A stretch of 64,000 bases of DNA, taken from NCBI GenBank assembly GCA_951799405.1, contig OX637342.1, positions 2,728,001 to 2,792,000 of the forward strand. Direction: 5' to 3'. Position numbers and translations under genes: made by a program. Under the pieces are notes generated by a model that did no database searches, had not been told where the DNA came from, and saw only the letters and a list, made by a program, of their open reading frames with translations. The stretch is from Agapetus fuscipes. Lineage: Eukaryota > Arthropoda > Insecta > Trichoptera > Glossosomatidae. Below, piece after piece: positions 17,603-53,654 of this stretch (positions are counted from its first letter, which is position 1; every line of letters starts with the position of its first letter).

Positions 17603-18074
17603 ATATAACAAAAAAACTTAATTTTATTTTTTACGGTTTGGTGGCTCACACACTGAAATTTCATTGTATTTATTAAAAAAAAAAAAACTGTGTTTTAAAA
17701 TAAAAATTAAGTAATACAGTAACGCAATAGATATTGAAAATATATAGCATCTCATGAATGCTCATTAGAGACGCTTTTTTGCTTTCACATTTTTTTGGGC
17801 AAACTTTATGTTGAAGTCTACACGATTCGTTTTATACTTGGGGCACTTGACGAATCCCCGCTATCGAAGTCCCATTTAGTGGAAAGTTTTAATTGACTTT
17901 GTGAAGCGACTCCCGCCATTCTGTCACTCCAATTGGCCATACATAAACAGTCGGATTGTCTGAAGAAATGACAGTCCCACTATCCGATTCGCAATTGACT
18001 AAATGGGATCGATTTGATGAAGTTAATTTGTGAATATTTTCTGAACAGAATACTTCCGCGTTTTAATAGAAACC

Positions 18075-18330
18075 TAAATCTAAATCTAACCTGCAAAGAT
18101 ATGTATCATTTAAGATTCATATTAAATGTATTCCCACAAGCAGGCACGTGTAATTTCGCGCTCACACATGCCGCATGTGGACCTTCAGTATAAAAAACCC
18201 AATCTCAAATGAACATAAGCCCTACAACTCTTGCCGACCTTCCCTGAAACAGGGGTGACATGGGCAAAGTGAACCATTTTTTACAGTATGGGTGGTCAAC
18301 CTCATACCAACCTATCAGTCCTGGAATAAT
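18075..18330 (-). repeat. R1 copy
   Basis: On the minus strand it runs from GGTTGGTATGAGGTTGACCA through CCCTGTTTCAGGGAAGG to TTTGCAGGTTAGATTTAG. Near full length. Confidence 0.7.
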
Positions 18331-18527
18331 AATAATTGGTCAATTTGTACATAGCGTCGTTTAGTGGTACTAGCCACCCCAAGGGCGCTTTTATGTGTTG
18401 AAGCTTCTGTTAAACGCCAACACTGGTCTGTTCTCAGGTCCAAAGATAGACTATTCCAGCAGGATAGACCAGCCGAACATGTCGAAAATGTATGATTAAT
18501 TAATTATTAAGTAATATTCTACACGTA

Positions 18528-18845
18528 CACCGGTCCGCATTCCAATGGTAACGCTTTGAACTCGTAAATGGAAGGTTGAGGGTTCGAATCCCGGCGGAGC
18601 ACAAAAAATATGCGATTTATATTTTCAAATATGCTCTTCGCTGGGTTGAAAAATTCATAAATCTTTACCAAAAACCGGTCACCAAAGGTCCATCCAGCCT
18701 TATAGCAAATGAGTCTTGCTTGAGAATTGTCGATTGGAAGGAAGATCAAGCTCGGAAAAATACTGGTCGATAGCTCAGTTGGTAGAATACTTGCATCCCA
18801 TGCCGAGAGCAAGGGATTGATTCCCCCCGAGGGTGTTAGATTAGA
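18528..18845 (+). mobile_element. Composite SINE: T1 followed by T2 head
   Basis: T1 (18528-18757) has CACCGGTCCGCATTCCAATG and GGGTTCGAATCCCGGCGG. It is joined through an A-rich linker to a T2 head with GATAGCTCAGTTGGTAG (A box) and AGGGATTGATTCCC (B box). The T2 head is a tRNA-like pseudogene within the SINE, not a free tRNA gene: it has no sensible acceptor stem and the same joint recurs at 59520 and 19890. Confidence 0.7.
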
Positions 18846-20354: not shown

Positions 20355-20465
20355 ATGTAAAATTAGGTTCCATGGTAGAACGACACAGTGACCGAACTAC
20401 ACATGACAGAACATCACAATGACAGTATATCACATGACAAAACATCGCATACCTAAAACAGAATA
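20355..20465 (-). repeat. Left arm of a foldback-like element
   Basis: Short degenerate tandem units (ACATGACAGAACATCACAAT, CACATGACAAAACATCGCAT) whose reverse complement closely matches the array at 28060-28890. For example, the complement of 20425-20465 gives AGGTATGCGATGTTTTGTCA, against AGGTATGTGATGTTTTGTCA at 28109. The Gypsy element inserted next to it. Confidence 0.55.
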
Positions 20466-20468
20466 TAC

Positions 20469-20940
20469 TGTTATGTAAATATAAATATTGAAATAAGTAT
20501 GGATAATTATAGTTATAAGAATCCTCAAAAGTATTGGTAGGTAAGATCGATAATTATGTATAAGTGTAGAATTCTCTAGGCTAAGTAGGTATTTGTTATA
20601 ATTATAGGAATACTGTATTGCATTGGTAGGTAGGATTTTGGTTGTGTCTAGGTAGTACGTGAAACATCGAGAAGTAATAATTACTCTGGAACCTTCTAGC
20701 AACTATAGGTCTAGATTATACTGCTCTAAAGAGTATAAAGGGTGCAAATGGCCTGCAGAGCGGCCAGTATCATAGAGACTTACAAACACATCGAAGTCAT
20801 CTGATCAGTGAACCAAAACCAAGTGGAATAATCGAGAAAGTAGTGTGAAAATAAATTTTGTAACTGTGTAAAATAAATAACTATTGAAGAAGACCTGTGT
20901 ATTTTTAATTTGAAGACAATTGAACCCTAATTTCGTAACA
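20469..20940 (+). repeat. 5' LTR
   Basis: Starts TGTTATGTAAAT, ends TTCGTAACA. It contains a TATA box (TATAAAG, 20734-20740) about 30 bp upstream of CCAGTATC, a plausible transcription start near 20765. A polyadenylation signal AATAAA lies at 20872-20877, with AATAAATAA following. U3 is therefore roughly 20469-20764 and R-U5 the rest. Confidence 0.95.
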
Positions 20941-21646: not shown

Positions 21647-22957
21647 ATGGCTAAGGTGAACATCAAGGACCTCAAAGTCACTGAGCTTAAGAATGAGCTT
21701 CTGGAAAGGGACCTGGAGACCTCAGGAGGGAAGGCGGCCTTACAAGCACGCCTCATGGAAGCTCTAGAACAGTCAGGCGAAGACCCGGCATACTTTGTCA
21801 TGGCATCTGGGGGAGACCGCGCCCTTGAGGAACTGAACCTCAGCATCAACAGTAACCTGACAGGACTGAAGACTGAGATGGCTGACAACGCCAAGACCCT
21901 GAAGGAGGACCTGACCGGGCTGAAGGAGGACCTGGCAACCATGGAAGAGAAAATGACCACCAACCTGACCGGGCTGGAGGAGAAGGTGACGGGGCTGGAG
22001 GAAAAGATGAACAGCAACATGACCAGCCTGAAGGAAGAGATGACTGAGGCACTGGAGAAGAAAGTGGCAGAAAGCTCGCGAGCAATGTCGGAGATTGAGG
22101 CCCGTGTGGCAAGCCTGGAGGACCGTCTGCGTGCCGAGCTGGCTGACAAGTGCCAGATGGAGTCCACCAGAATCTCCCCCAAAGGCGGCCTTCACGACGA
22201 GACCGACCAGGGATGCTCAACTCCAACCAGGGTCACAAGAGGGGATGATGACCCTTCCCTAGCCAAGCACAACCTCCCAACCTTCGACGGGAAGACGTCG
22301 TGGGAGGAATACTTGACCCTCTTTGAGACGGCTGCCATGATGGGAGCCTGGAGCCAGCAGAAGAAGGCTTCGGTTCTCAGCCTGTCGCTCCGAGGAGACG
22401 CTCTCAGGGTTCTGCAGGCCATACCCCTGGACAACCGTGGTGACTTTGGGCAGCTGAAGCAGCGCTTGGATATGCGCTATGGCCACAAGTGCCTGGAGCA
22501 GCTGTACAAGTCACAGCTGAACACAAGGGTGCAGAAGCCCAACGAGAGCCTCCAGGAGTTTGAAATGGACATCGCCCGCCTGGTACGAGACGCTTACCCG
22601 ACAGCCTCCGACGACATCTGTGAGAGCTTGGCAGTGGACAAGTTCCTAAATGGATTGCGGGAATGGGAGACGCAACAAGCCGTAAAACTGGCCCATCCCA
22701 AGGCTTTGAACGAGGCGCTCAGCCAAGCTCTCGAGTTTGAGGCTGTCAAACAGTCCATTAGGGGCCACGCCAGGGTTCGTGCAGTCGAGGCAGAGGAGGT
22801 CAAGCTACCAACAACCGAGGAGTTAATTGAAAAAGTGCTGGAACGTCTGAGACCTCGAAGACGAGACCCACGCTGCTGGAACTGCGGACAGCTGGGCCAC
22901 CTTAGCACCAAGTGTCCAAAGCCTCAGAAACCCAGAAAACAGGCTGCGGAAAACTAG
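21647..22957 (+). CDS. gag: Gag polyprotein with N-terminal SAP-like domain
   Basis: 436 residues from ATG at 21647 (context AAAAAAATGG, a good insect start; the frame extends 24 bases further up only through a TTG). Residues about 6-40 (DLKVTELKNELLERDLETSG, then KAALQARL) resemble a SAP domain, a helix-hairpin motif that binds AT-rich DNA. Residues about 55-185 are a heptad-rich coiled coil (repeats of LTGLKEDL type). Residues about 205-370 are the Gag capsid-like core. A CCHC zinc knuckle C-x2-C-x4-H-x4-C (CWNCGQLGHLSTKC) is at 410-423, just before the stop. The product would form virus-like particles and package element RNA. SAP domains are not usual in Gypsy Gag proteins as far as I know. 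Pol begins in the -1 frame within the last 46 bases. Confidence 0.93.
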   Translation: MAKVNIKDLKVTELKNELLERDLETSGGKAALQARLMEALEQSGEDPAYFVMASGGDRALEELNLSINSNLTGLKTEMADNAKTLKEDLTGLKEDLATMEEKMTTNLTGLEEKVTGLEEKMNSNMTSLKEEMTEALEKKVAESSRAMSEIEARVASLEDRLRAELADKCQMESTRISPKGGLHDETDQGCSTPTRVTRGDDDPSLAKHNLPTFDGKTSWEEYLTLFETAAMMGAWSQQKKASVLSLSLRGDALRVLQAIPLDNRGDFGQLKQRLDMRYGHKCLEQLYKSQLNTRVQKPNESLQEFEMDIARLVRDAYPTASDDICESLAVDKFLNGLREWETQQAVKLAHPKALNEALSQALEFEAVKQSIRGHARVRAVEAEEVKLPTTEELIEKVLERLRPRRRDPRCWNCGQLGHLSTKCPKPQKPRKQAAEN

Positions 22958-25900
22958 AAAGGGTTAATGGGAAGGGGCAACCGTTGACCCGCGCTGGAGA
23001 GGCCCTGAAATCTGCTGCTACTGTCGCAACCGTGAGAGGAAAAGCCAGCAGCATTTTTATCAATGGCATAATAGATGGAGTAACTCGTGAACTACTGGTG
23101 GACACGGGAGCAACCAGGACAATTCTGAGACGCGACATAGTGGCACGAGGCAAACAGATTGCACCAACAAAATGGTCTCTGCACACCGCCACGGGAGAGT
23201 CAGCACAGGTGTATGGGGAGACGATTGCCACCTTCCAAATTGGCAGCACCACTTTTGATCATCGGACATTGGTGGCCAACATTGAAGAAGACGTTATATT
23301 GGGAATGGACATACTGGACAGATTTGGGTGCAGCTTAAATTTAAAAAAAGGTGCCATTAAAATTGAAAATGAAGAAGTCATCCTGCAAAGACGGAAAGAA
23401 CTGGCTGCACGTGTGATCCTAGCCAAGAATACCGAAGTGAAGGGGCGATCCGAGATGATAGTGAGTGCCCGCCTGGATTCCAGTAGTACAAATGACCAAA
23501 TCTGTATGATAGAACCGGAGAACATGGACAATGTTAACAAAGGAGTCATGGTGGCAAGAACAGTGATTCGCGCGCAGGAGACCATTCCTGTCAAGATCAT
23601 GAATGTGAACAGCTACCCAGTTAAAATGAATGAAGGTTTTGTTTTGGGCAGATGTGAGAGGATAACTTCCATTGTGCAACAGATGACAAACATGACATGC
23701 GAGGGAAGAAAATTATCGACACAATTGGAAACCCTGGTCCACGACGCTTCCCAAGGTCTAACCGAGGAAAACAGACTTAGAGTGAGGAGTTTGATCTGCC
23801 GCTACCAGAACATTTTCGAGGACTCTAATGGCCGTCTGGGAAGAACCAAGGTAGTGCGACATAGCATAGACACCGGAGAAGCAAGACCAATCAAACAGGC
23901 TCCAAGAAGACTACCCTTTGCAAAGCGGGAAGAAGCCGACAAGATCATCAAAGACATGAGCAAGGATGGCATCATAGAACCATCAAGTAGCCCTTGGACA
24001 TCCCCGGTGGTACTGGTGAAAAAGAAGGATGGTACCACGAGATTTTGTGTGGACTACAGACTGCTCAACGATGTTACGAAAAAGGATAGTTACCCTCTGC
24101 CAAGGATTGACGACACCTTGGACACATTGGCAGGATGCACCATTTTTTCCACATTGGACCTGAAAAGTGGCTACTGGCAAGTTGAATTGGATGCCAAAGA
24201 TAAGGAGAAAACGGCATTCTCGACTGGATCTGGACTTTGGCAGTTCACCGTGATGCCATTTGGCTTATGCAATGCCCCCGCCACGTTTGAAAGGCTGATG
24301 GAGAATGTGCTGCGAGGACTGTCATGGGAAACCTGCCTTGTATACTTGGATGACATAATCATCCTGGGAAAGGACTTCAACCATCAGTTGAGAAATCTGG
24401 AGCAAGTTTTCGGGCGACTACAAGACGCTGGACTGAAGCTCAACCCGAAAAAGTGTAACCTGTTCAAGAAACAAGTAAATTACCTGGGACACATAGTTTC
24501 TCAACGTGGAGTTGAAGTTGACCCTGCCAAAATCAAGGCAGTAAGAGACTGGCCCGTGCTGAAGGACAAACATGAAACTAGGAGCTTCCTGGGGCTGTGC
24601 ACTTATTACAGGAGGTTTGTGCCAAGATTTGCGGACATTGCAAAACCGCTCACCAAGCTTACGGAAGAAAACACTCGCTTCCATTGGAGTGATTCCTGCG
24701 CACAAGCATTTGAAGAGCTTAAGGGAAGATTAACAAGTGCCCCCATCTTGAGCTACCCACGAAAAGATGGAAAGTTCATCCTGGATACCGACGCTAGTAA
24801 TGTGGGGATAGGAGGCGTCCTTTCCCAAATACAGGATGGGCATGAGACTGTTCTGGGTTACTTCAGTAAAGTGCTTTCCAAGCCAGAACGAAATTATTGC
24901 GTGACCAGACGAGAGCTTCTTGCCGTGATAAAATCAGTGGAACACTTCCGCAAATACTTGTACGGGAGAAAATTCACACTACGGACTGATCATGCTGCAC
25001 TGGTTTGGCTTCTGAAATTCAAAAACCCAGAAGGGCAAGTGGCTAGATGGATTGAAAGGCTCCAGGAGTATGATTATGACTCCGAACATAGACCTGGCAC
25101 GCTTCATCGAAATGCGGATGCATTATCCAGACGACCATGCGCCAGTGACTGCAAACATTGCAGCAAGATGGAGGACAAGGTAGCAATTGTCCAAAGGACG
25201 ACCACCGAAGATGAGGACTGGCAAGATGAAAAATTGGCGCAAGACCAACTGAATGATCCGGACTTGAAGTATGTGATGGAATGGGCGCGAGAAGGAGAAA
25301 GGCCAACCTGGGAAAAACTCGCCCCCTTATCACCAACTGTCAAGGCTTATTGGGCTCAATGGGGATCCATAGTGATAGAAGGAGGGTTTCTGAAACGAAA
25401 GATCGAGAAGGAAGACGGCACACTTAGAAGAAAGCAAACCCTCGTTCCGAGGAGCCGAGTACCGGAAATCCTTGGACTGCTGCATGGAGGAACTTCTGGA
25501 GGACATCTAGGCGTTAAGAAGACGCTGGAGAAAGTGAAAGAGCGATTTTACTGGATCAACTGCAGCGAAGACGTCAAAGATTGGTGTCGAAAATGTGTAA
25601 CCTGTGCAACGGCCAATGGACCGCAAAGGAAAAGGCGAGCACCAATGCGTCAGTACAATGTTGGCAGCCCCTTTGAAAGAATTGCCATCGACATAGCTGG
25701 CCCATTTCCTACAACTGAGAAGGGTAACAAGTACATCATGGTGGTGATGGATTACTTCAGCAAGTGGGTGGAAGCTTACTCAATCCCTAACCAAGAGGCC
25801 GTAACCGTGACTGAAGTTCTAGTTACCGAATTTATCAGCAGGTTTGGCGTACCCCTGGAATTACATTCTGATCAGGGAAGGAACTTTGAAGCTGCTATCT

Positions 25901-27174
25901 TCCAGCAAATGTGTGAGCGGCTAGGAATCTACAAGACCAGGACCACTGCGCTACATCCACAGTCTGATGGAATGGTGGAAAGGATGAACCGTACCGTGGG
26001 GAGGTACTTAGCCAAAGTAGTGTCCAGCCATCAGCGGGACTGGGACCGACATCTGCCTTTGTTCTTATTGGCTTACCGGTCGGCTGTTCAGGAAACGACG
26101 AAGAAGACTCCCAGCAGCATACTGTTTGGGCGAGAAATGCGACTTCCTTGTGATCTCAAATTTGGCTGCAAACCAGGTGAAGACCTAGCCGGAGAAGACT
26201 ATGTGACAGACCTTCGCAGGAGGCTGGATGACATCCATGATCAGGTCCGCATGAACATCGGGGAAGCCAGCGATCAAATGAAGGAGCGCTATGACACCAG
26301 AGCTGACAGCATGGGGTACAAAGCTGGTGACTGGGTGTGGCTTTTTGACCCCAAGAGGCGCCAAGGATACTGTCCGAAACTTCAGCGTTCCTGGGACGGG
26401 CCGTACGAGATCTTGGAGCGCATCAACGATGTGGTCTACCGCATAAAAAAGAGACCAAACGGAAAACCAAGGGTCGTGCACTACAATCGCCTCTCACCAT
26501 ACCTAGGCAATAATGATGACCAACCAGCCCAAAAAGTACGACAGTGCGTCGCATCCGAAAGATCACCAGCCTTTGAGACGTTTTGGGAGAACGCGAAGGC
26601 AGGGCAGAAGTTTCGCCATGGAGTGACCACAGAAGTCCACAAGGACTTATTTGAGGTCACTAGGGACCACACACTGGCATGCAGTGTACCGGAAGATCTA
26701 GATATGTCTAGAGGAATTGCACGGGTCTTCCGATACAAATTCGGAGAACCGCAACCCTCGAGCAGCCCGCAAGGAAGAGCTCTGAGACTACCGAAGGGGC
26801 GTCAACAAGCATACTGCCTGGTTGTCCCGGATTCCAGCAACCTGGAAGATGACTACAAGGCATTGTGGGACGGCCTTGTTGAGCTGCGTGACTACATGTT
26901 GGAGGATCAGCAGGCGCGTCTGGCAATACCGAAGATGGGTGGCGGCCGCGCTAATCGAGACTGGCGGATAATCCGGAGTATGATTGAAGCAGTGTTCTCG
27001 GGAGTCGGCATCAGCGTCATGGTGTGCTGCGAGCAAGCGCAGCCGAGAGCCAGTGGGGAGAAATCCGTGGACTGCCACTTCTTCCTGACCACAGGGTGTC
27101 GACGTGGATCAGCATGCCCCTACCTACACAGAGTCAAGACTGTTCCGGGACGAAACAGTCTAGGTGGGGGGTAG
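22912..27174 (+). CDS. pol: Pol polyprotein: PR-RT-RNaseH-IN plus macrodomain and CCCH finger
   Basis: Open for 1420 codons, starting at GTG with no ATG at its head, so it is presumably made as a Gag-Pol product by -1 frameshifting in the overlap with gag (22912-22957). Protease: DTGA at residues 64-67. Reverse transcriptase: YLDD at 478-481. RNase H: DTDAS near 625-629. Integrase: HHCC zinc finger (H858, H865, C895, C898), catalytic D927, D987 and E1023 (D-x35-E spacing), then a GPY/F module with GPY at 1163-1165. Beyond the usual end of Gypsy Pol, residues about 1238-1373 resemble a TARG1/OARD1-type macrodomain: DLFEV 1245-1249, GIARVFRYKFG 1268-1278, AIPKMGGG 1338-1345 and W1351. A CCCH zinc finger (C1388, C1396, C1402, H1406) follows. 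The TAG stop directly abuts the 3' LTR. Confidence 0.93.
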   Translation: MSKASETQKTGCGKLERVNGKGQPLTRAGEALKSAATVATVRGKASSIFINGIIDGVTRELLVDTGATRTILRRDIVARGKQIAPTKWSLHTATGESAQVYGETIATFQIGSTTFDHRTLVANIEEDVILGMDILDRFGCSLNLKKGAIKIENEEVILQRRKELAARVILAKNTEVKGRSEMIVSARLDSSSTNDQICMIEPENMDNVNKGVMVARTVIRAQETIPVKIMNVNSYPVKMNEGFVLGRCERITSIVQQMTNMTCEGRKLSTQLETLVHDASQGLTEENRLRVRSLICRYQNIFEDSNGRLGRTKVVRHSIDTGEARPIKQAPRRLPFAKREEADKIIKDMSKDGIIEPSSSPWTSPVVLVKKKDGTTRFCVDYRLLNDVTKKDSYPLPRIDDTLDTLAGCTIFSTLDLKSGYWQVELDAKDKEKTAFSTGSGLWQFTVMPFGLCNAPATFERLMENVLRGLSWETCLVYLDDIIILGKDFNHQLRNLEQVFGRLQDAGLKLNPKKCNLFKKQVNYLGHIVSQRGVEVDPAKIKAVRDWPVLKDKHETRSFLGLCTYYRRFVPRFADIAKPLTKLTEENTRFHWSDSCAQAFEELKGRLTSAPILSYPRKDGKFILDTDASNVGIGGVLSQIQDGHETVLGYFSKVLSKPERNYCVTRRELLAVIKSVEHFRKYLYGRKFTLRTDHAALVWLLKFKNPEGQVARWIERLQEYDYDSEHRPGTLHRNADALSRRPCASDCKHCSKMEDKVAIVQRTTTEDEDWQDEKLAQDQLNDPDLKYVMEWAREGERPTWEKLAPLSPTVKAYWAQWGSIVIEGGFLKRKIEKEDGTLRRKQTLVPRSRVPEILGLLHGGTSGGHLGVKKTLEKVKERFYWINCSEDVKDWCRKCVTCATANGPQRKRRAPMRQYNVGSPFERIAIDIAGPFPTTEKGNKYIMVVMDYFSKWVEAYSIPNQEAVTVTEVLVTEFISRFGVPLELHSDQGRNFEAAIFQQMCERLGIYKTRTTALHPQSDGMVERMNRTVGRYLAKVVSSHQRDWDRHLPLFLLAYRSAVQETTKKTPSSILFGREMRLPCDLKFGCKPGEDLAGEDYVTDLRRRLDDIHDQVRMNIGEASDQMKERYDTRADSMGYKAGDWVWLFDPKRRQGYCPKLQRSWDGPYEILERINDVVYRIKKRPNGKPRVVHYNRLSPYLGNNDDQPAQKVRQCVASERSPAFETFWENAKAGQKFRHGVTTEVHKDLFEVTRDHTLACSVPEDLDMSRGIARVFRYKFGEPQPSSSPQGRALRLPKGRQQAYCLVVPDSSNLEDDYKALWDGLVELRDYMLEDQQARLAIPKMGGGRANRDWRIIRSMIEAVFSGVGISVMVCCEQAQPRASGEKSVDCHFFLTTGCRRGSACPYLHRVKTVPGRNSLGGG
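26623..27030 (+). other. Macrodomain-encoding segment of pol
   Basis: The order of motifs follows the TARG1/OARD1 (ALC1-like) macrodomain branch: a strand plus DLF near the start, a GIA-x2-F-x3-FG helix region, a long central helix, AIPKMGGG...W, then an amphipathic helix (RIIRSMIEAVF) and a final strand (SVMVC). Members of this branch remove ADP-ribose from acidic residues and deacylate O-acetyl-ADP-ribose. By eye the position of the human TARG1 catalytic aspartate aligns with Ala1347, and the usual M-G-x-G-I-A is M-S-R-G-I-A here. It may therefore bind ADP-ribose without hydrolysing it, or use another residue such as Asp1350. Confidence 0.7.
27073..27129 (+). other. CCCH zinc finger-encoding segment of pol
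   Basis: CHFFLTTGCRRGSACPYLH gives C-x7-C-x5-C-x3-H, the pattern of RNA-binding CCCH fingers, with the aromatic and basic residues commonly found between the ligands. It lies 15 residues from the end of Pol. Confidence 0.75.
27162..27174 (+). other. Polypurine tract
   Basis: AGGTGGGGGGTAG immediately upstream of the 3' LTR. It doubles as the last Pol codons (Gly-Gly-Gly, stop). Confidence 0.8.
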
Positions 27175-27646
27175 TGTTATGTAAATATAAATATTGAAAT
27201 AAGTATGGATAATTATAGTTATAAGAATCCTCAAAAGTATTGGTAGGTAAGATCGATAATTATGTATAAGTGTAGAATTCTCTAGGCTAAGTAGGTATTT
27301 GTTATAATTATAGGAATACTGTATTGCATTGGTAGGTAGGATTTTGGTTGTGTCTAGGTAGTACGTGAAACATCGAGAAGTAATAATTACTCTGGAACCT
27401 TCTAGCAACTATAGGTCTAGATTATACTGCTCTAAAGAGTATAAAGGGTGCAAATGGCCTGCAGAGCGGCCAGTATCATAGAGACTTACAAACACATCGA
27501 AGTCATCTGATCAGTGAACCAAAACCAAGTGGAATAATCGAGAAAGTAGTGTGAAAATAAATTTTGTAACTGTGTAAAATAAATAACTATTGAAGAAGAC
27601 CTGTGTATTTTTAATTTGAAGACAATTGAACCCTAATTTCGTAACA
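27175..27646 (+). repeat. 3' LTR
   Basis: 472 bp, identical by eye to the 5' LTR. AATAAA is at about 27578. Followed by the ATAC duplication. Confidence 0.95.
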
Positions 27647-27654
27647 ATACCATA

Positions 27655-27815
27655 AGCAGGGCTTATGTTCATTTGAGATTGGGTTTTTTATATTGTAGGT
27701 CCACATGCGGCATGTGTGAGCGCGAAATTATGCGTGTCTGTTTGTGGGAATGCATTTAATATGAATGTCAAATGATACATATCTTTGCAGCTTAGATTTA
27801 GATTAAGATTTAGGC
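27655..27815 (+). repeat. R1 copy
   Basis: GCAGGGCTTATGTTCATTTG through GTGAGCGCGAAATTATGCG to TTTGCAGCTTAGATTTAG. Its front part is interrupted by the Gypsy insertion or was lost before it. Confidence 0.65.
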
Positions 27816-27969
27816 ACATGAAAACCAGCACACGATCAAACAGACACCATAAACGGCATGACAAAAAAGTGGGACATAAGAAAAAAATATTCATACATAT
27901 ATTATTTGGTAAAGCTTCTAAAAAAAATTCCGCCCTCAATTACCATTATTCGAAAAAAAAAAGATCTTA

Positions 27970-28045
27970 CTAAGCTGCACATAAAAAGCACCCCCTTACC
28001 GCGTTATCCCCGAAGCAGTAACATAATATGGCATGTGGAATAAAA
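27970..28045 (-). mobile_element. SINE T2 3' tail fragment
   Basis: TAAGCTGCACATAAAAAG, then CGTTATCCCCGAAGCAG and TGGCATGTGGAATAAA are a diverged, rearranged form of the T2 3' end. Confidence 0.35.
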
Positions 28046-28059
28046 TTCATTGTTAATGT

Positions 28060-28890
28060 TCTTTGTGATGTTTTTTTTATGTGCCATTTTTGGTATGTTC
28101 TGTTAAAGGTATGTGATGTTTTGTCATGGTATTTTTTTAAAAAAATCCTGTGCGGGAGACTCCTTAGATTCTAGAGACTCTAGGGGTCTATGAAACTTTT
28201 TGTAGTGCCGCAGAGGTGTACGATCTTGGTCGTCAATACGCCAATACTCAAGCAAGACCCAGTTGCTGTAAGGCTGGAAGGACCTTGGTGACCGGTCATT
28301 GGTATAGGTGTATGAATTTTTCAACCCAGCGAACAGCATATTTGGAAATATAAATTGTATATAATTGGAAATATAATTGTGCTCCGCCGGGATCCGAATC
28401 CACAACCTTCCTTTTACGAGTCCGAAGTGTTGCCACTGGACTACGGATCGGTCCAAGAATGGTATGTTTTGTCCTTGTGTTATTTTGTCATTATGATGTT
28501 TTATCACGTAATGTACTGTCATTGTGATGTTGTGTAATGTGTTCTGCCCTGCTAAGAAAGAAGGCAGTAACTGATTTTTTTTCGATATTGAGTTATATAT
28601 GTATTTCCATATTTTAAACGACGCTGAATCCAATAAGCTCAGTAAAATAGCAAGATCTCATATCGTTACTAAGACATAAGCACACAGACTAGCAGTAAGT
28701 GTACTTAAAATCATACAATTCCTAAGTTTGAAGTTGATTATCTCAGAACAAACATTTTGCAGATACTGCCTTTTTGGTAAGCAGGGCAGTGTTGTCCTGC
28801 CATGTTTCGTTTTATCATGTGTCGTTCTGTCATGTGTCGCTATGTCATGTATCGTTTTGTCACTGTGCCGTTCTAACCTATCACCGTAAG
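28060..28890 (+). repeat. Right arm of the foldback-like element
   Basis: Degenerate units of about 15-18 bp with the core TGTCATGTG(A/T)CGTTC, for example TTCTGTCATGTGTCGCTATG near 28835. They occur in three blocks at 28060-28131, 28458-28550 and 28790-28885, the first two separated by a T1 SINE. The final block ends TGTGCCGTTCTAACC, mirrored at the start of the left arm near 20365. Confidence 0.55.
28132..28453 (-). mobile_element. SINE T1 with tail B
   Basis: Head GGACCGATCCGTAGTCCAGT (28453 back), B-box region GGATTCGGATCCCGGCGG, body to GACGACCAAGATCGTACACC. The tail ends CCCGCACAGGATTTTTTT. Same tail as the 3440 copy and LINE-B. The body contains a small duplication (AATTGTATATAATTGG). 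Confidence 0.75.
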
Positions 28891-41395: not shown

Positions 41396-43680
41396 AATGG
41401 ACATGCTGTCGGTGGACATTATGTCGGGGAAACATTTTGTCCATGGACATTGTATCGGTGGACATTATGTCGGTGGGACATATGTCGGTGGGCATTCTTT
41501 CCGTGGACATTCTGTCGGTGGACATTCTGTCGGTTGATATTCTGCCGGTGGACATTATGTCGGGTGAACATTTTGTCCATGGACATTGTATCGTTGGACA
41601 TTATGTCGGTGGGACATATGTCGGTGGGCATTCTTTCCGTGGACATTCTGTCGGTGGACATTCTGTCGGTTGACATTCTGCCGGTGGACATTTTGTCGGG
41701 GAACATGTTTGTCCGTGGACATTGTATCGGTGGACATTGTGTCGATGGACTTTCTATCGGGTAGACATTTTGCCCGTGGACATTGTATCGGTGGACATTT
41801 TGTCGCGTGGACATTGTATCGGAGGACATTATGTCGGTGGACATTTTGTCGCGTGGACATTGTATCGGTGGACATTATGTCGGTGGACATTTGTCGGGGG
41901 AACATTCTGTCGGGTGAACATTTTGTCCGTGGACATTGTATCAGTGGACATTATGTCGGTGGGACATATCGCTGCCCTAGTTCAATACTCAGACATCTTA
42001 CACAAAGCTAGTTTCGAGAAAATCGAAAAAGAAGGTTTGTAATCGCTATGATAATTACAGTTAACTTTGTTTTAAAGTCACTTAACGCAACAATGTGTAG
42101 CTTAGTTGCATTAAGTGACTTTAAAACAAAGTTAACTGTAATTATCATAGCGATTACAAACCTTCTTTTTCGATTTTCTCGAAACTAGCTTTGTGTAAGA
42201 TGTCTGAGTATTGAACTAGGGCAGCGATATGTCAGTGGACATTCTTTCCGTGGACATTTTGTGGGTGGACATTTTGTCGCGTGGACATTATGTCGGTGGG
42301 ACATTATGTCAGTGGACATTCTTTCCGTGAATATTCTGTCGATAGACATTCTGTCGGTTGACATTCTGCCGGTGGACATTTTGTCGGGGGGCCATGTTTG
42401 TCCGTGGACATTGTATCGGTGGACATTGTGTTGGTGGACATTCTGTCGGGTGGACATTTTGTCCGTGGACATTGTATCGGTGGACATTATGTCGGTGGAC
42501 ATTTAGTCGGGTGGACATTCTGTCGGGTGAACATTTTGTCCGTGCACATTGTATCGGTGGACATTATGTCGGTGAGACATATGTCAGTGGACATTCTTTC
42601 CGTGGACATTTTGTGGGTGGACATTTTGTCGGAGGACATGTTTGTCCGTGGATATTGTATCGGTGGACATTGTGTCGGTGGACATTCTGTCGGGTGGACA
42701 TTTTGTCCGTGGACATTGTATCGGTGGACATTATGTCGGTGGACATTTTATCGGGTGGACATTCTGTCGGGTGAACATTTTGTCCGTGCACATTGTATCG
42801 GTGGACATTATGTCGGTGAGACATATGTCAGTGGACATTCTTTCCGTGAACATTTTGTGGGTGGACATTTTGTCGGAGGACATGTTTGTCCGTGGATATT
42901 GTATCGGTGGACATTGTGTCGGTGGACATTCTGTCGGGTGGACATTTTGTCCGTGGACATTGTATTTGTTTGGTATTTTGTATTTGCATTGGTGGGCATT
43001 ATGTCGGTGGACATTTTGTCGCGGGGACATTGTATCGGTGGACATTATGTCGGTGGACATTTTGTCGGGTGGACATTCTGTCGGGTGAACATTTTGTCCG
43101 TGGGCATTGTATTTGTTTGGTATTTTGTATTTGCATTGGTGGGCATTATGTCGGTGGACATTTTGTCGCGGGGACATTGTATCGGTGGACATTATGTCGG
43201 TGGACATTTTGTCGGGTGGACATTCTGTCGGGTGAACATTTTGTCCGTGGGCATTGTATCGGTGCACATTATGTCGGTGGACATTTTGTTGCGTGGACAC
43301 TTTGTCGCGTGGACATTTTTTCACGTGGACATTTTGTCCGTGGACATTGTGTCGATGCACATTCTGTTGGTGGACATTCTGTCGGGGGACATTTTGTCGG
43401 TGGACATTTTATCGGGTGGAAATTTTATCAGGGGGACATTTTGTCCGTGTACATTATGACGGTGGACATTTTGTCGCGTGGACATTTCGTCGCGTGGACA
43501 TTTTGTCACGTGGACATTTCATCCGTGAACATTGTGTCGATGGACATTCTGTTGGTGGACATTCTGTCGGTGGACATTTTGTCGGTGGACATTTGGTCGG
43601 GTGGAAATTTTGTCGGGGGGACATTTTGTCCGTGTACATTATGTCGGTGGACATTCTATCAATGTACATTTTGTCGTCGC
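41396..43680 (+). repeat. 15-bp-unit minisatellite, about 2.3 kb
   Basis: Tandem CGGTGGACATTNTGT units (15 bp, sometimes 16) with variants such as CCGTGGACATTGTAT and CGGGTGAACATTTTGT. Units are arranged in higher-order blocks: for example TTTGTTTGGTATTTTGTATT occurs at about 42965 and again about 148 bp later. Because 15 is a multiple of three, long spurious frames arise (VDILS repeats). A fold-back MITE splits it at 41970-42226. Confidence 0.9.
41970..42226. mobile_element. Fold-back MITE with ATAT target duplication
   Basis: 257 bp made of two 122-bp arms (41970-42091 and 42105-42226) differing at one position, with a 13-base loop (AATGTGTAGCTTA). The termini CGCTGCCCTAGTTC / GAACTAGGGCAGCG resemble those of MITE-A. 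Flanked by ATAT (41966-41969 and 42227-42230); removing the insertion restores the uninterrupted minisatellite unit. Confidence 0.9.
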
Positions 43681-43687
43681 ACCGATT

Positions 43688-45368
43688 AATTTTCTTCTTC
43701 TTCTTAATCCTATTCCTCATTACTGAGGGTTGTGACCCTTGTGGAAGCAACCAATCTTCTCCAGCTCTCCCTCGACTGCGCTGCCCGCAACGCTCCAACT
43801 ACCGAGGTGCCTGCTGCTGTCTTCACTTGATCGGTCCATCGTGTGGGGGATCTACCTCTTCCTCTCTTCCCCTCCAAGTTACCGATCACAACCAGTCGTT
43901 CCAGGCTATCCTCATTGCCACGGACAACGTGTCTGAAGAACTGAAGAATACGGCGTGTACACATGTTGGCCAGAGTCAAGCCATCCAAACGCAGCTCCCG
44001 ACGAATGGACTCATTGGTGCGTCTAGCCGTCCATGGGATTCGAAGCATGCGCCTCCAGCACCACATTTCAAAAGCGTCAATTTTTCTTCTTTCTGCTGCT
44101 TTTATGGTCCATGTTTCAGCAGCATAGAGAAAAATAGAGTGGACCAGACTCCTGACAAGCTTAATCTTGGTGCTGTTACTCACACCCCGGTCTTTCCATA
44201 TTTTGTCCAGCTTAGACATGGCACTTTTGGCAATGGCGATACGGCGTCTAATTTCTCCTTCGCAAGATCCTTCGTTACTAATTTGAGATCCAAGGAACTG
44301 GAACTCGTTTATGATCTCCAAACCTTGAAATGAGTTTCCCAGATCACCAAACTTTTTTGATCGATCTATGATCATGATCTTGGTTTTACTCTGGTTGATC
44401 TCGAGTCCCAGTGCCTTGCTCTCGGTCTCTACTCGTTTAAGGAGATCTGCCATCTCTCTCGGGTTTTTGGCCAAAAGTGTTGTGTCATCCGCATATCTTA
44501 AATTGGACAGCTTTACGCCACCAATAGACACTCCACCATCCCATTGGTACAGAGCCCTGCGCATTATGTATTCCCCATAGATATTAAACAGGTCAGGGGA
44601 GAGGATGCATCCCTGTCTTACACCTTTTTCTGTGGGAAAACTTGTTGTGTTCATGCCATTAATCCTTATGATTGCCTTACTAGGAGTGTAAAGTCCGTGG
44701 ATGAGTTTTATCAAATGGGATGGAACCCCCATTTCCTTGAGAACTTTCCACAAATATTCCCACTTCACGCAATCAAAAGCCTTCTTGTAATCAATAAAAC
44801 ATAAAACAACTGGCGTCAGGAACTCTCTGCTCTTTTCAATAATCTGACGGATGTTGAGAATCTGTTCTCTTGTACCTCTTCCTTTCACAAAACCAGCCTG
44901 TTCCTTAGGAATTTGCCATCCAATATAGCTGTGCAAACGCGCCTTTAGCACATATAACAATATCTTGCTGGTGTGAGAGATAAGTGCTATCGTTCTGTAA
45001 TTTGCACATTTTTTGGATGATCCTTTTTTGTAAAGAGGAATAAATACAGACTCTGTCCATTCTTGAGGCCATATTCCCGTTTTCCATACAAGGTTGCAGA
45101 GATCTAAAATTGTTTTTATGCCCTTATCCCCTAGTTCTTTTAAAAGTTCGGCTTGTAAGTAGTCATTGCCGGGGGATTTGTTGCATTTTAGTATTTTCAG
45201 TGCATCTCGAACCTCTTCTTCCAGAATATCGGGTTCCATGGTTTGACCATCAAAAGTAGGACTTGCAGCTATTGAGGGGTCAGTATATAGCTCAGAACAG
45301 TAATCTCGCCATCTCTCTAAGACGCTATCAATGTCCGTCAAAGTGCTTCCATTGTGGTCCTCTATTTA
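43688..45368 (-). pseudogene. 5'-truncated RTE-like LINE (reverse transcriptase)
   Basis: The minus strand (45341 to 43710) is open for 543 codons, starting only at TTG. It has the N-terminal part of the reverse transcriptase (KCNKSPGNDYLQAELLKELG), YKKAFDCVKW, GVRQGCILSP and YADD (44484-44495). The C-terminal WCWRRMLRI and GRGRSPTRW follow. These features suit the RTE/BovB-like clade. No endonuclease remains, so it is 5' truncated at about 45368. The 3' end is a (GAA)n tract (43690-43707), directly at the end of the minisatellite. It is open throughout, so fairly young. Confidence 0.85.
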
Positions 45369-50055: not shown

Positions 50056-51009
50056 TTCAATAATGGTAAAAATCTTTCTATCGAAAGCATTTTCCATAAC
50101 TTTGTTTTTTTTCAGTTAAATTAAAATAGTTTCACTATTTATGAAACTACCATGAAATAACAATGGATGTGAAACATAGTTTTCAAAAATAGTTAGAGAG
50201 TATTTCAACTTAAAATAACTAACATCAAACTATCATTGAAATGTGTATGTACCCTTCTAAAAGATAGCATTTTCAAATACCGACGTTTTTGAAACACGTC
50301 CCAAGAAAATCGATAAAAATGTACCTACTAATATTTTCAACCATCAATTTTTAGTTTTTATCCTCAACGTAATTTATTTTCAGCGGATCCTTTAAAATCT
50401 ACATATTTTGAAATTTGTGAAAAGTATAGAGAGATCGGCGCGTCCATTTGAAGATTTGAAACCCGTGTATAATTTTTTTTTTTTTAACTTAACCGTAGAG
50501 TTTGATTAATATAATTTATGAAAACCAAAACGTGCACAAGAGGCGCTGTTTTTACTTCCCATGCATTTCTGAGGGTAATTTAAACGTTAGAATGTATACT
50601 TTCAATACTGTACCTATATCAAACACGGCGTTTTAACATAAATGCTCAGAAACTGAAACGTCCACTGAAAGCGCTTTTTAATTTTTCACTTATTTTTTGG
50701 TTAACGCTATGGTTAACTCTAAACGTAGAGGCTTATACTTGAGTTGCAGTTCGCATTCATTCAATTGTAAGATGCTTTCAGACAAACAAATAATTTCCAT
50801 CGAGACTAGGACGTGACGTCCCATAAATTTGTTCGTCTACAACCCGACTGAGAGCAGATGAAAGTCCCAGGGCGTGCTTACTCGGCGTAGATATAGGTAG
50901 GAATAATTTATGTAAATTTCTCATCAAAATAATTATTCTGGAATAATTTTAACAAACCGTTACTAAAGAAAATGGATTCCAATTGAAAATCTTACATCAA
51001 AATAAATAT
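50056..51009. other. No recognisable gene
   Basis: AT-rich, no supported feature. The boundary with the LINE-A copy is not sharp. Confidence 0.35.
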
Positions 51010-51019
51010 AACAGAGAAT

Positions 51020-52291
51020 ATTTCCTGGACCAACCATGGCGGAGTTGCGTTGCTAGTGCGTCCAGGATGTCGTGTGGAGAAGATTAACTTTTTTTCTTTC
51101 ACGACATTTGAGTGCCTTGTATGTCGGGTATCTTCCGGTGCAACGCTCACAATAGCTATTGTATATCGCCCCGGCTCTAAGCCTGTTACGGCGGCGTTTT
51201 TTCATGAATTTCGGGAGCTCTTTGAAGTTTTAGTAACTCGTAATGAGATGTTTCTGATAGTGGGGGATGTTAACGTCAGGCTTGAGCGCAGAGATGACAC
51301 CAATTGTGTTACTCTCACTGCCTTGCTTGCGGACTATGGCTGCAGACAGTGGGTAGATGCTCCCACTCATGACGCGGGTGGCCTACTGGATGTGGTCATC
51401 ACTAGACAGGAGGATGCTCCTTTGAAAACAGAGGTAAGAGATGTGGGTTTGTCGGACCACAGGTTGGTGGTGGTACGTTTAAATCTAGGACGACCTGTTC
51501 CTGTATACAGGAAAATTACCTCCAGGTCCTGGAACAAATTTAAGATCGATTTCTTCAAAATGGATTTGTCTCTATCGCCGATCTGTTGTCCGGAAACCTA
51601 CGTCTCAATGCACCCAGACACATTAGTTGGGCTGTACAATGACACCATGAAAAGTTTAATAAATCTGCATGCTCCCATTACAATCAAACATGTTAGGGAG
51701 CGGAATAGTGCTATCTGGTTTGATAGTGAATGCAGTGCGCTGAAACGCAAAATGCGACAAGCAGAGCGTAATTTCAGGAGCGGCAAGCCAGGTAGCACTA
51801 GAGAAATGTGGATAATTGCACAGGGTCTGTACAGGTCAGCTATCCTCCAGAAAAAGTCCCAGCATTATTGTACCATTATTGCTAGTGAAAAATGTCCACA
51901 GCGTTTATGGAGACTTCTGGAGAACGTGTCTGGTGGTGCCCGGGCCGGTGCGGGTCCGGTGACGACTGCTGGTGATCTCGCTGCTTACTTTCAAAGTAAA
52001 ATACCGACCAGATATTCTCCCCTAGGGGTTAGTCCTGGTTCTCTGGGACTTTTGTGTAATTCACAGCTTGAAGTGCTTGGGCTGACCTCTATTGAAGAGG
52101 TGACGCGAGTTGTAGCGGGATCGCCAAATAAGCAGTGTGATCTGGATCCTGTGCCGACGTGGGTACTAAAAGAGTGCATTCTTCTAGTGGCTCCATTTAT
52201 TGTTAGGTTTATCAATGGATGCCACTATCCCCTCCTTTTTAAAGGAAGCGCAAATAACGCCAATATTAAAAAAGCCAAATCTCGATCCTAA
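51020..52291 (+). pseudogene. LINE-A endonuclease and RT N-terminal part
   Basis: The frame is open from upstream of 51020 (SWTNHGGVALLVR) to the stop at 52291, with no ATG start. It holds the AP-like endonuclease second half (AIVYRPG, VGDVNVRLE, GGLLDVVITR, LSDHRLV: catalytic N, D and H in order). A linker follows, then the start of the reverse transcriptase (SPNKQCDLDPVPTWVLKEC). The first part of the endonuclease is absent. The RT continues in the +1 frame from about 52215. Confidence 0.85.
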
Positions 52292-53654
52292 CGATCTCTC
52301 CAATTTCAGGCCGGTGTCAAACTTACCGTTTCTGTCTAAGGTACTGGAGCGCATTGTCTCTGATCGGCTGGTATCTTATCTGAGTGCTAACGATCTGATG
52401 CCTAAGAGGCAATCAGCCTATCGAAAATATCATTCGACTGAAACTGGCTTACTGACGGTGGTCTCAGATCTGATATCGGCAGTGGATTGCGGAGATCTTG
52501 CTCTCTTAGCGCTTCTGGACATGAGTGCGGCGTTTGACACCGTATGTCATGATATTCTGATAAGGAGGTTGGAGGGTTCGTACGGCTTGAGGGATAAGGC
52601 GCTGGCGTGGTTCTCCTCCTACTTGGCGGATCGCAAGCAGGTAGTGCGTACTTGTGACTGTGTCTCACCTTCCTATTCGCTGATCTCCGGGGTGCCGCAG
52701 GGGTCTGTACTGGGACCGATCCTGTTTATTTTATACACTGCTGACATTGAGAGTATAGTTGAGAAATGGGGCCTCATTACACATGCATATGCAGATGACT
52801 GGCAAATTTACTCTCAGTGTCAGCCACATATGGCACAAACTCTCAGTAACAGGGTGGCAGCTTGCATTGCGGAGATTGGTGAATGGATGACAAGCAATGG
52901 CCTAATCCTTAACATGGGTAAGACAGAAGTGATGTGGGCGGCTACAACCAGGCGTGATCATCTTTTGACAACTCGAGTACCACTCTCCATTGGGGGAGAG
53001 CTGATTCAGCCCTCCGACTCAGTCAGACTTCTAGGAGTCACACTGGATCGGAACCTCACAATGGGAGAGCAATTGAACTTGACTGTATCTTCCTCATTTT
53101 TTGAACTTCGCCAGATAAAGGCGATCAGGAGATGTTTACCGTCGGGAGCAGTCAAGACCCTGGTTAATGCCTTTGTGATGTCACGAGTTGACTATTGCTC
53201 AACGCTGTACATAGGTCAGCCGAAAAAGCAGTTCAACCGTCTTCAGTCTGTGCTGAATTCAGCGGCAAGACTCATATTCGGGATGTCTAAATTTACTCGC
53301 ATTACTCCATTGTTAGGGAAACTGCATTGGCTTCGTTTTCCGGAGAGGGTGGTCTACCGTGTTTGTCTGATGGTGTATAAGGCTGTAAATGGTACAGCTC
53401 CTTCATATTTGGCTGACATGTTTACACCCGTTGAGAGGGATTTGAGGCGCCAAACGCTCAGATCTGCAGGGGATGGCGTGGTGGACTTGGTTCAGCCACA
53501 CCGTCAGACACGCACTAATTTTGGGGACCGTGCTTTCCGGTTTGCGGGACCAATGGAGTGGAACAGACTGCCACCTAATGTGAGGAAGGCAAAGACTGTT
53601 GGTGTCTTTAAAGGAGCACTAAAGACACATCTTTACAAGAAATCTTATCCGTGA
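52200..53654 (+). pseudogene. LINE-A reverse transcriptase, frameshifted
   Basis: Continues the previous frame: FLKEAQITPILKKPNLDPND and FRPVSNLPFLSKVLERI, DMSAAFDTV (catalytic Asp113), GVPQGSVLGPILF, and YADD at residues 197-200 (52788-52799). The C-terminal half ends in FKGALKTHLYKKSYP then TGA, a form common in CR1/L2-like elements. Intact RT motifs with only one disruption indicate a young pseudogene or a possible sequence error. Confidence 0.88.

Follow-up and report, generated by a model that had tools for sequence, protein, structure and literature searches.

The window, which is the whole 64-kb stretch of Agapetus fuscipes DNA that was analysed, contains one young Gypsy-type LTR element with the following features.

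20465..20468, no strand: left target-site duplication ATAC, equal in sequence to 27647-27650
20469..20940, + strand: 5ʹ LTR, 472 bp, TGTTATG...CGTAACA, same sequence as the 3ʹ LTR
21647..22957, + strand: gag, with SAP domain, Retrotrans_gag and CCHC knuckle (Pfam)
22906..27174, + strand: pol open frame, 1422 codons, with a 52-base overlap with the end of gag
23059..23322, + strand: aspartic protease (Pfam gag-asp_proteas, 7.5e-12)
24685..25071, + strand: RNase H (Pfam RT_RNaseH_2 and RT_RNaseH, 3.6e-35 and 5.1e-34)
25501..25947, + strand: integrase H2C2 zinc domain and rve core (Pfam, 2.5e-13 and 5.5e-16)
26398..26499, + strand: GPY/F module (Pfam Integrase_p58_C, 4.7e-13)
26629..27024, + strand: TARG1/OARD1-like macrodomain
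26689..26691, + strand: Pro at the TARG1 Ser35 position (alignment)
26827..26829, + strand: Pro at the TARG1 Lys84 position (alignment)
26950..26952, + strand: Ala at the TARG1 Asp125 position (alignment)
27073..27129, + strand: CCCH zinc finger, C-x7-C-x5-C-x3-H (Pfam zf-CCCH, 1.7e-4; CPSF30 finger in the PDB, E 0.0019)
27175..27646, + strand: 3ʹ LTR, beginning directly after the pol stop codon
27647..27650, no strand: right target-site duplication ATAC (sequence)

The LTRs, the target-site duplication, and a Gag followed by protease, reverse transcriptase (RT), RNase H and integrase with a GPY/F module make this a Ty3/Gypsy element. As an initial annotation made from the letters alone had stated, the LTRs are identical over their 472 bp, and they are flanked by the 4-bp ATAC duplication; the identical block measures 474 bp, its last two bases being taken as duplication or leader. 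Gag is recognised by Pfam matches to SAP (E 2.7e-8), zf-CCHC (1.6e-5) and Retrotrans_gag (2.7e-5). The RT lies upstream of RNase H and was read from the sequence and the end of RVT_1, which scores under its Pfam cut-off because the scanned piece begins within the RT. Past GPY/F, Pol continues in frame for 224 codons and ends in a TAG directly before the 3ʹ LTR.

Three inverted-repeat pairs (79-92% complementary), at 18070-18685 and 27658-28452, lie either side of the element; because they straddle it, the insertion site may be inside another repeat. Elsewhere in the window, 41419-44333 gives repetitive translations on either strand and in several frames (CPxDKMSTD-like and GHFVGW-like) and is probably a tandem-repeat array. 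Open frames resembling RTs of non-LTR retrotransposons are located at 43710-45365 (-) and 50987-53654 (+), the latter made up of two overlapping frames.

The macrodomain and zinc finger at the end of Pol

Human TARG1 is an enzyme that removes the ADP-ribose tag, and Ser35 is one of its residues with a catalytic role. The initial annotation had proposed that this Gypsy Pol ends in a TARG1-type macrodomain followed by a CCCH finger, a proposal borne out by sequence search, fold comparison and a zf-CCCH match. By sequence, the macrodomain is found at E 5.4e-11 with TARG1 as the best solved match (30% identity over the aligned domain, shared motif order), and it scores 61.3 bits versus at most 4.8 in 1000 shuffles. 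TARG1 also ranks first by fold for the predicted structure of the domain, which was the structural check that had been suggested. The suggested profile check gave a divided result, with a zf-CCCH match above the cut-off (21.9 versus 20.5 bits) and no match to Pfam Macro (PF01661), whether for the window domain or for those of four other copies (L043, L037, L046 and L055). Pfam-based annotation thus misses the TARG1-like element domain, and its spread may be underestimated. Three loci of this genome that do exceed the Pfam Macro cut-off (L001, L002 and L003) are distinct from the element domain. Among NCBIfam profiles, the only match at E up to 0.1 is DarG, a DNA ADP-ribosyl glycohydrolase, far under its cut-off (E 4e-9 for family B and 5.5e-6 for family C, described below, and 1.3e-5 for the window). 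DarG and the protein SCO6735 belong to the ALC1-like class (PMC9411070, available text), which is also that of the window domain; they differ from the window domain in being bacterial and in having other catalytic residues.

The window domain differs from TARG1 in being embedded in a retrotransposon Pol (or, in other copies, Gag) ahead of a CCCH finger, and in its active site. The role of Lys84 and Asp125 in TARG1 is described in the available text of PMC9411070 and PMC5087735. This catalytic dyad is absent from the window macrodomain: the aspartate is replaced by Ala, as had been noticed from the letters, and the lysine has been lost as well, to Pro. At the Ser35, Lys84 and Asp125 positions, the families with the domain behind GPY/F carry P/P/A (family A, that of the window), A/P/A (A') and A/R/A (C; two rows each), whereas S/K/D is found in 6/6 B-type rows (three copies of this genome plus the database proteins P0121, P0122 and P0123) and in 15/15 OARD1 rows. 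Among the families compared, all three positions are changed in the C-terminal families alone. Gly43 and Gly123, in the phosphate-side loops, are retained in every A, A', C and B row; Gly121 is missing from a single B row, that of P0123, and the Trp129 position is kept in every A, A' and C row. By sequence and predicted fold, the extension is a TARG1-like macrodomain; by its residues, it is not a TARG1-type hydrolase.

The finger matches the pattern C-x7-9-C-x4-6-C-x3-H exactly. Its zf-CCCH score of 21.9 bits is that of a 190-aa piece and becomes 20.2 for a longer one; A' reaches 21.6 bits and family C, at 17, stays below the cut-off, and all four zinc ligands are present in the aligned A' and C copies. 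CPSF30 fingers are the nearest solved sequences, and the segment is modelled with low confidence (pLDDT under 50). Judged by its motif and profile score, the finger is real but short. No chromodomain appears among the Pfam rows at E up to 1 for the C-terminal pieces of the window Pol.

Families, selection and captures

The expectation that other copies would share the extension is confirmed within this genome. With the window extension as query, 150 of 1396 first-look candidates were scored, and these are 99-100% identical over 190/190 residues, with a frame of exactly 1422 codons in 107/150 and of 1414 or more in 117/150; presence in one copy only is rejected. Family A is, on these sequences, young and abundant. 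The module also recurs in diverged families, and in place of the single lineage seen initially, at least four macrodomain Gypsy families are present (A, A', C and B), together with a degenerate fifth (D) and a Pol-less derivative. Both A' (L055 and L057) and C (L046-L054 and others; longest frames 1424-1485 codons; E 2.5e-19 to TARG1) have macrodomain and CCCH finger behind GPY/F, in a window-like arrangement. Their integrases are 89% and 83% identical to that of the window, respectively, and their extensions 73-74% and 47-48%, which makes the extension the faster part. In family B (L037-L045; longest frames 1253-1266 codons), the TARG1-like domain (E 1.3e-20 to TARG1 for L043) follows RNase H and precedes the integrase H2C2 domain. 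Family D comprises 9 matches at 31-32% identity to B, with frames of 1278-1285 codons in 8/9. The one copy read (L097) has a degenerate macrodomain at B's position, in which the loop glycines and Asp125 are lost and the Lys84 position is kept. Its predicted fold is that of a macrodomain, in a test biased towards this outcome because the alignment included B and OARD1 rows, and its best PDB row by sequence is an unrelated protein (E 0.5). Since D keeps the position without the loop glycines, the domain can apparently persist without an ADP-ribose pocket.

Human OARD1 as query (150 scored of 995) recovered, besides several of these element families, three exon matches of 43-45% identity with the Lys and Asp positions kept, which by sequence probably represent the OARD1 gene of the host, or copies of it. 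Some element copies contain a single frame of about 1830-1860 codons (G000:C1:24369632, C9:5833017, C2:12625331 and others), a length sufficient for Gag and Pol in one frame.

In 14 copies (6/20 stretches of one set and 8/20 of another, recognised by this feature), a coiled coil that the window Gag lacks immediately precedes the macrodomain piece, at the place taken by integrase in the other copies. Gag, coiled coil, macrodomain and CCCH finger form one frame in L056, L063, L064 and L072, and within these frames no protease, RT, RNase H or integrase was found; the open frame runs to the edge of the stretch in nine further copies and is broken in L067. None of the 14 has a stop inside the extension. 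A query with the coiled coil returned 267 first-look candidates, and 150/150 scored are at least 99% identical, with frames (not each read) of 740 codons or more in 128/150 and a median of 788. One Pol-less copy has LTR sequence at both ends, its 5ʹ part agreeing with the 3ʹ LTR at 329/330 bases; another has a full 3ʹ LTR and one more a partial one (L056 and L064). The Gag of L072 is identical to the window Gag at 210/237 residues of the aligned part.

TR-GAG elements of plants are LTR elements that code for Gag alone, without Pol enzymes. The Pol-less subfamily, being LTR-bounded with a Gag ORF and no Pol enzymes, fits this definition; it is alike in its Gag-only coding and differs by the fusion of Gag to coiled coil, macrodomain and CCCH finger.

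Codon comparison shows purifying selection on the macrodomain extension, in line with the initial suggestion that the domain is under use. The estimates, biased downward because the copies were picked by open-frame length or by score, are dN/dS 0.23 at dS 0.70 for the extension of A versus A', 0.14-0.19 for macrodomain pairs of family B, 0.19 to 0.54 for close pairs and 0.29 pooled over the 14 Pol-less extensions; the Pol-less coiled coil gives 0.26-0.42 (printed pairs, without the broken L067) or 0.415 pooled with L067. The A versus C values were left unused, synonymous sites being saturated or nearly so. By part, A versus A' dN/dS is 0.18 for the macrodomain, 0.04 for integrase and 0.34 for linker and finger (few changes), and the faster divergence of the macrodomain relative to integrase is compatible both with relaxed constraint and with a host-facing role. 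Synonymous divergence between A and A' is about 1.4 in integrase and 0.95 in the macrodomain, but drops to 0.115 in linker and finger (window 27031-27171 versus L055/L057). This drop points to recombination near the 3ʹ end, so that, for the finger, the two families do not count as clean replicates.

The number of captures was approached through trees. A/A'/C and B are each set off by a strongly supported branch, but a tree uniting all element rows is not rejected (AU p 0.449 with host rows, 0.524 without; 28 and 26 rows, with D_L097 and P0123 omitted from 30 as long branches). In the 30-row tree, A/C fall among the OARD1 rows, beside the host rows, a join flagged as possible long-branch attraction. 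Independent captures are suggested because the positions of the domain within Pol differ. The integrase tree covers 12 rows among the families compared here. The B integrase also served to look for a sister Gypsy family lacking the domain. None occurs among the matches listed (118 scored of 2272), of which 9 belong to B and 9 to D; the other 100, at 33-34% identity, look like A/A'/C from their place and frame (not checked one by one).

Among Pol-length database proteins, the window extension had no match at E 1e-3 (622 candidates), nor did it match viral contigs. A 232-aa protein from a 996-base ENA contig (P0001) shares 99% identity with the window macrodomain piece; the window family or a near twin is therefore present in another public record. 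The B domain was found in Pol context in 3/848 protein-collection candidates at E 1e-3, namely P0121 (58% identity), which could come from a near relative of this genome, P0122 (38%) and P0123 (36%), the Pol of Lampyris noctiluca errantivirus 1 from a glow-worm. All three keep the S/K/D residues, and in each the domain is flanked by an RNase H motif and by integrase, the latter marked by its zinc motif in P0121 and P0123 and by an integrase match in P0122. The P0122 integrase is nearer to the window (44.5%) than to B (37.4%), which indicates that the RNase H-macrodomain-integrase arrangement extends beyond a single narrow lineage. The glow-worm element thus resembles family B in domain position and intact catalytic residues. 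Its third ORF is similar to a viral fusion protein (PMC7093385, available text), and no such ORF is listed between the window pol and the 3ʹ LTR. The words "macro" and "ADP-ribose" do not occur in the main text of PMC7093385 as available, and the precomputed domains of P0123 include no Macro domain.

ADP-ribose and the function of the module

Some RNA viruses are well known to use macrodomains against host defence; for LTR retrotransposons, direct evidence of a connection with ADP-ribosylation is, to our knowledge, scarce. Retroelements with a macrodomain are not unprecedented, since fish endogenous retroviruses can carry extra macro-domain ORFs according to the available text of a review (PMC4977317). 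These epsilon-like elements share with the present ones the capture of a macro domain; there it is an additional ORF, whereas here a TARG1-type domain (the class of the fish domain is unchecked) is fused in frame to Ty3/Gypsy Pol or Gag. The initial annotation knew of no described Gypsy lineage with this arrangement, and a fusion to Gypsy Pol or Gag was not found in the titles and abstract starts searched (most subscription journals lie outside that search).

The favoured reading, given a probability of roughly 0.45, is that the macrodomain and CCCH finger at the end of the Gypsy Pol constitute an ADP-ribose reader within the Gag particle that shields element RNA and proteins. As the TARG1 catalytic residues are replaced, the domain likely holds ADP-ribose rather than removing it. 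The stripped pocket would still hold ADP-ribose or an ADP-ribosylated nucleic acid end, and the finger would hold the element RNA. Carried in the particle by Gag fusion or as Gag-Pol, the two would act inside a ribonucleoprotein or particle and not as a stand-alone enzyme, and the bound reader could mask ADP-ribosylated element components from host ADP-ribosylation, presumably to the benefit of the element. In the same reading, the B-type domain, with its intact catalytic residues, would instead erase ADP-ribose, plausibly from the nucleic acid or proteins of its own element while reverse transcription proceeds. The strongest hint to function is that Pol-less copies keep the module with no integrase or polymerase for it to serve.

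Chromoviruses have a chromodomain after the GPY/F module of integrase, and ALC1 is a chromatin protein that reads ADP-ribose. By analogy, the C-terminal macrodomain might direct integrase towards chromatin bearing ADP-ribose, for instance at DNA breaks; this is unlikely, though the likeliest of the alternatives, and it would account well for the C-terminal position. The domain adjoins GPY/F directly, so that a macrodomain and CCCH finger stand in place of another reader-type domain, its hydrolase residues are lost with the loop glycines retained, and its class is named for ALC1 (PMC9411070, available text). However, the Pol-less copies that were read lack integrase and still have the module in frame with Gag, and in family B the TARG1-like domain precedes integrase and has intact catalytic residues.

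That the fold is a structural passenger, kept as a spacer or Gag-Pol assembly surface with no ADP-ribose function, is a weaker proposition. The macrodomain dN/dS is about four times that of integrase, and family D appears to retain just the predicted fold, but the loop glycines and the Trp129 position persist in all A, A' and C rows, dN/dS is about 0.2, and the module has been reused with Gag in a multiplying subfamily.

Improbable, too, is that A and C still hydrolyse nucleic-acid ADP-ribose by a chemistry other than that of TARG1. Such chemistry exists in bacterial SCO6735: this enzyme carries Gln85 and Ala130 where TARG1 has Lys84 and Asp125, yet it is an active hydrolase on thymidine-linked ADP-ribose (PMC5087735 and PMC9411070, available text). 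Activity in the absence of both dyad residues means that a purely reading role may not hold for A and C, and it weakens the step from the lost aspartate, which stands, to the binding-only role first proposed. In the elements, however, the Lys84 position is Pro (A and A') or Arg (C) and not Gln, Ser35 is gone as well, and the C-terminal families alone changed all three positions. Chance similarity or an annotation artefact, to which the missing Pfam Macro match might point, is rejected as having practically no probability given the sequence E-value of 5.4e-11, the shuffles, the first rank of TARG1 by fold, and E of about 1e-20 and 1e-19 for B and C.

Beyond the favoured reading of a particle-borne reader, it may tentatively be supposed, at less than even odds, that Ty3/Gypsy elements deal with ADP-ribose in two modes, as an intact eraser before integrase and as a stripped reader with an RNA-type finger. 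ADP-ribosylation of retroelement nucleic acid or particles would then be a general, unrecognised restriction that the elements counter, and the Pol-less copies would be parasites or accomplices. If so, the Gag-macrodomain-finger subfamily retained just the counter-defence and packaging parts, and genomes and jumping genes would be contending over ADP-ribose tagging. The question raised is whether retroelement cDNA, RNA or Gag is ADP-ribosylated and whether elements read or erase the tag; a multiplying family, several architectures, and intact versus stripped active sites make it testable on isolated proteins. On the host side, the PARP catalytic domain gave 5 partial matches in this genome, 2 of them interrupted by a stop. 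The presence of PARP genes is thus likely, and ADP-ribosylation is likely available.
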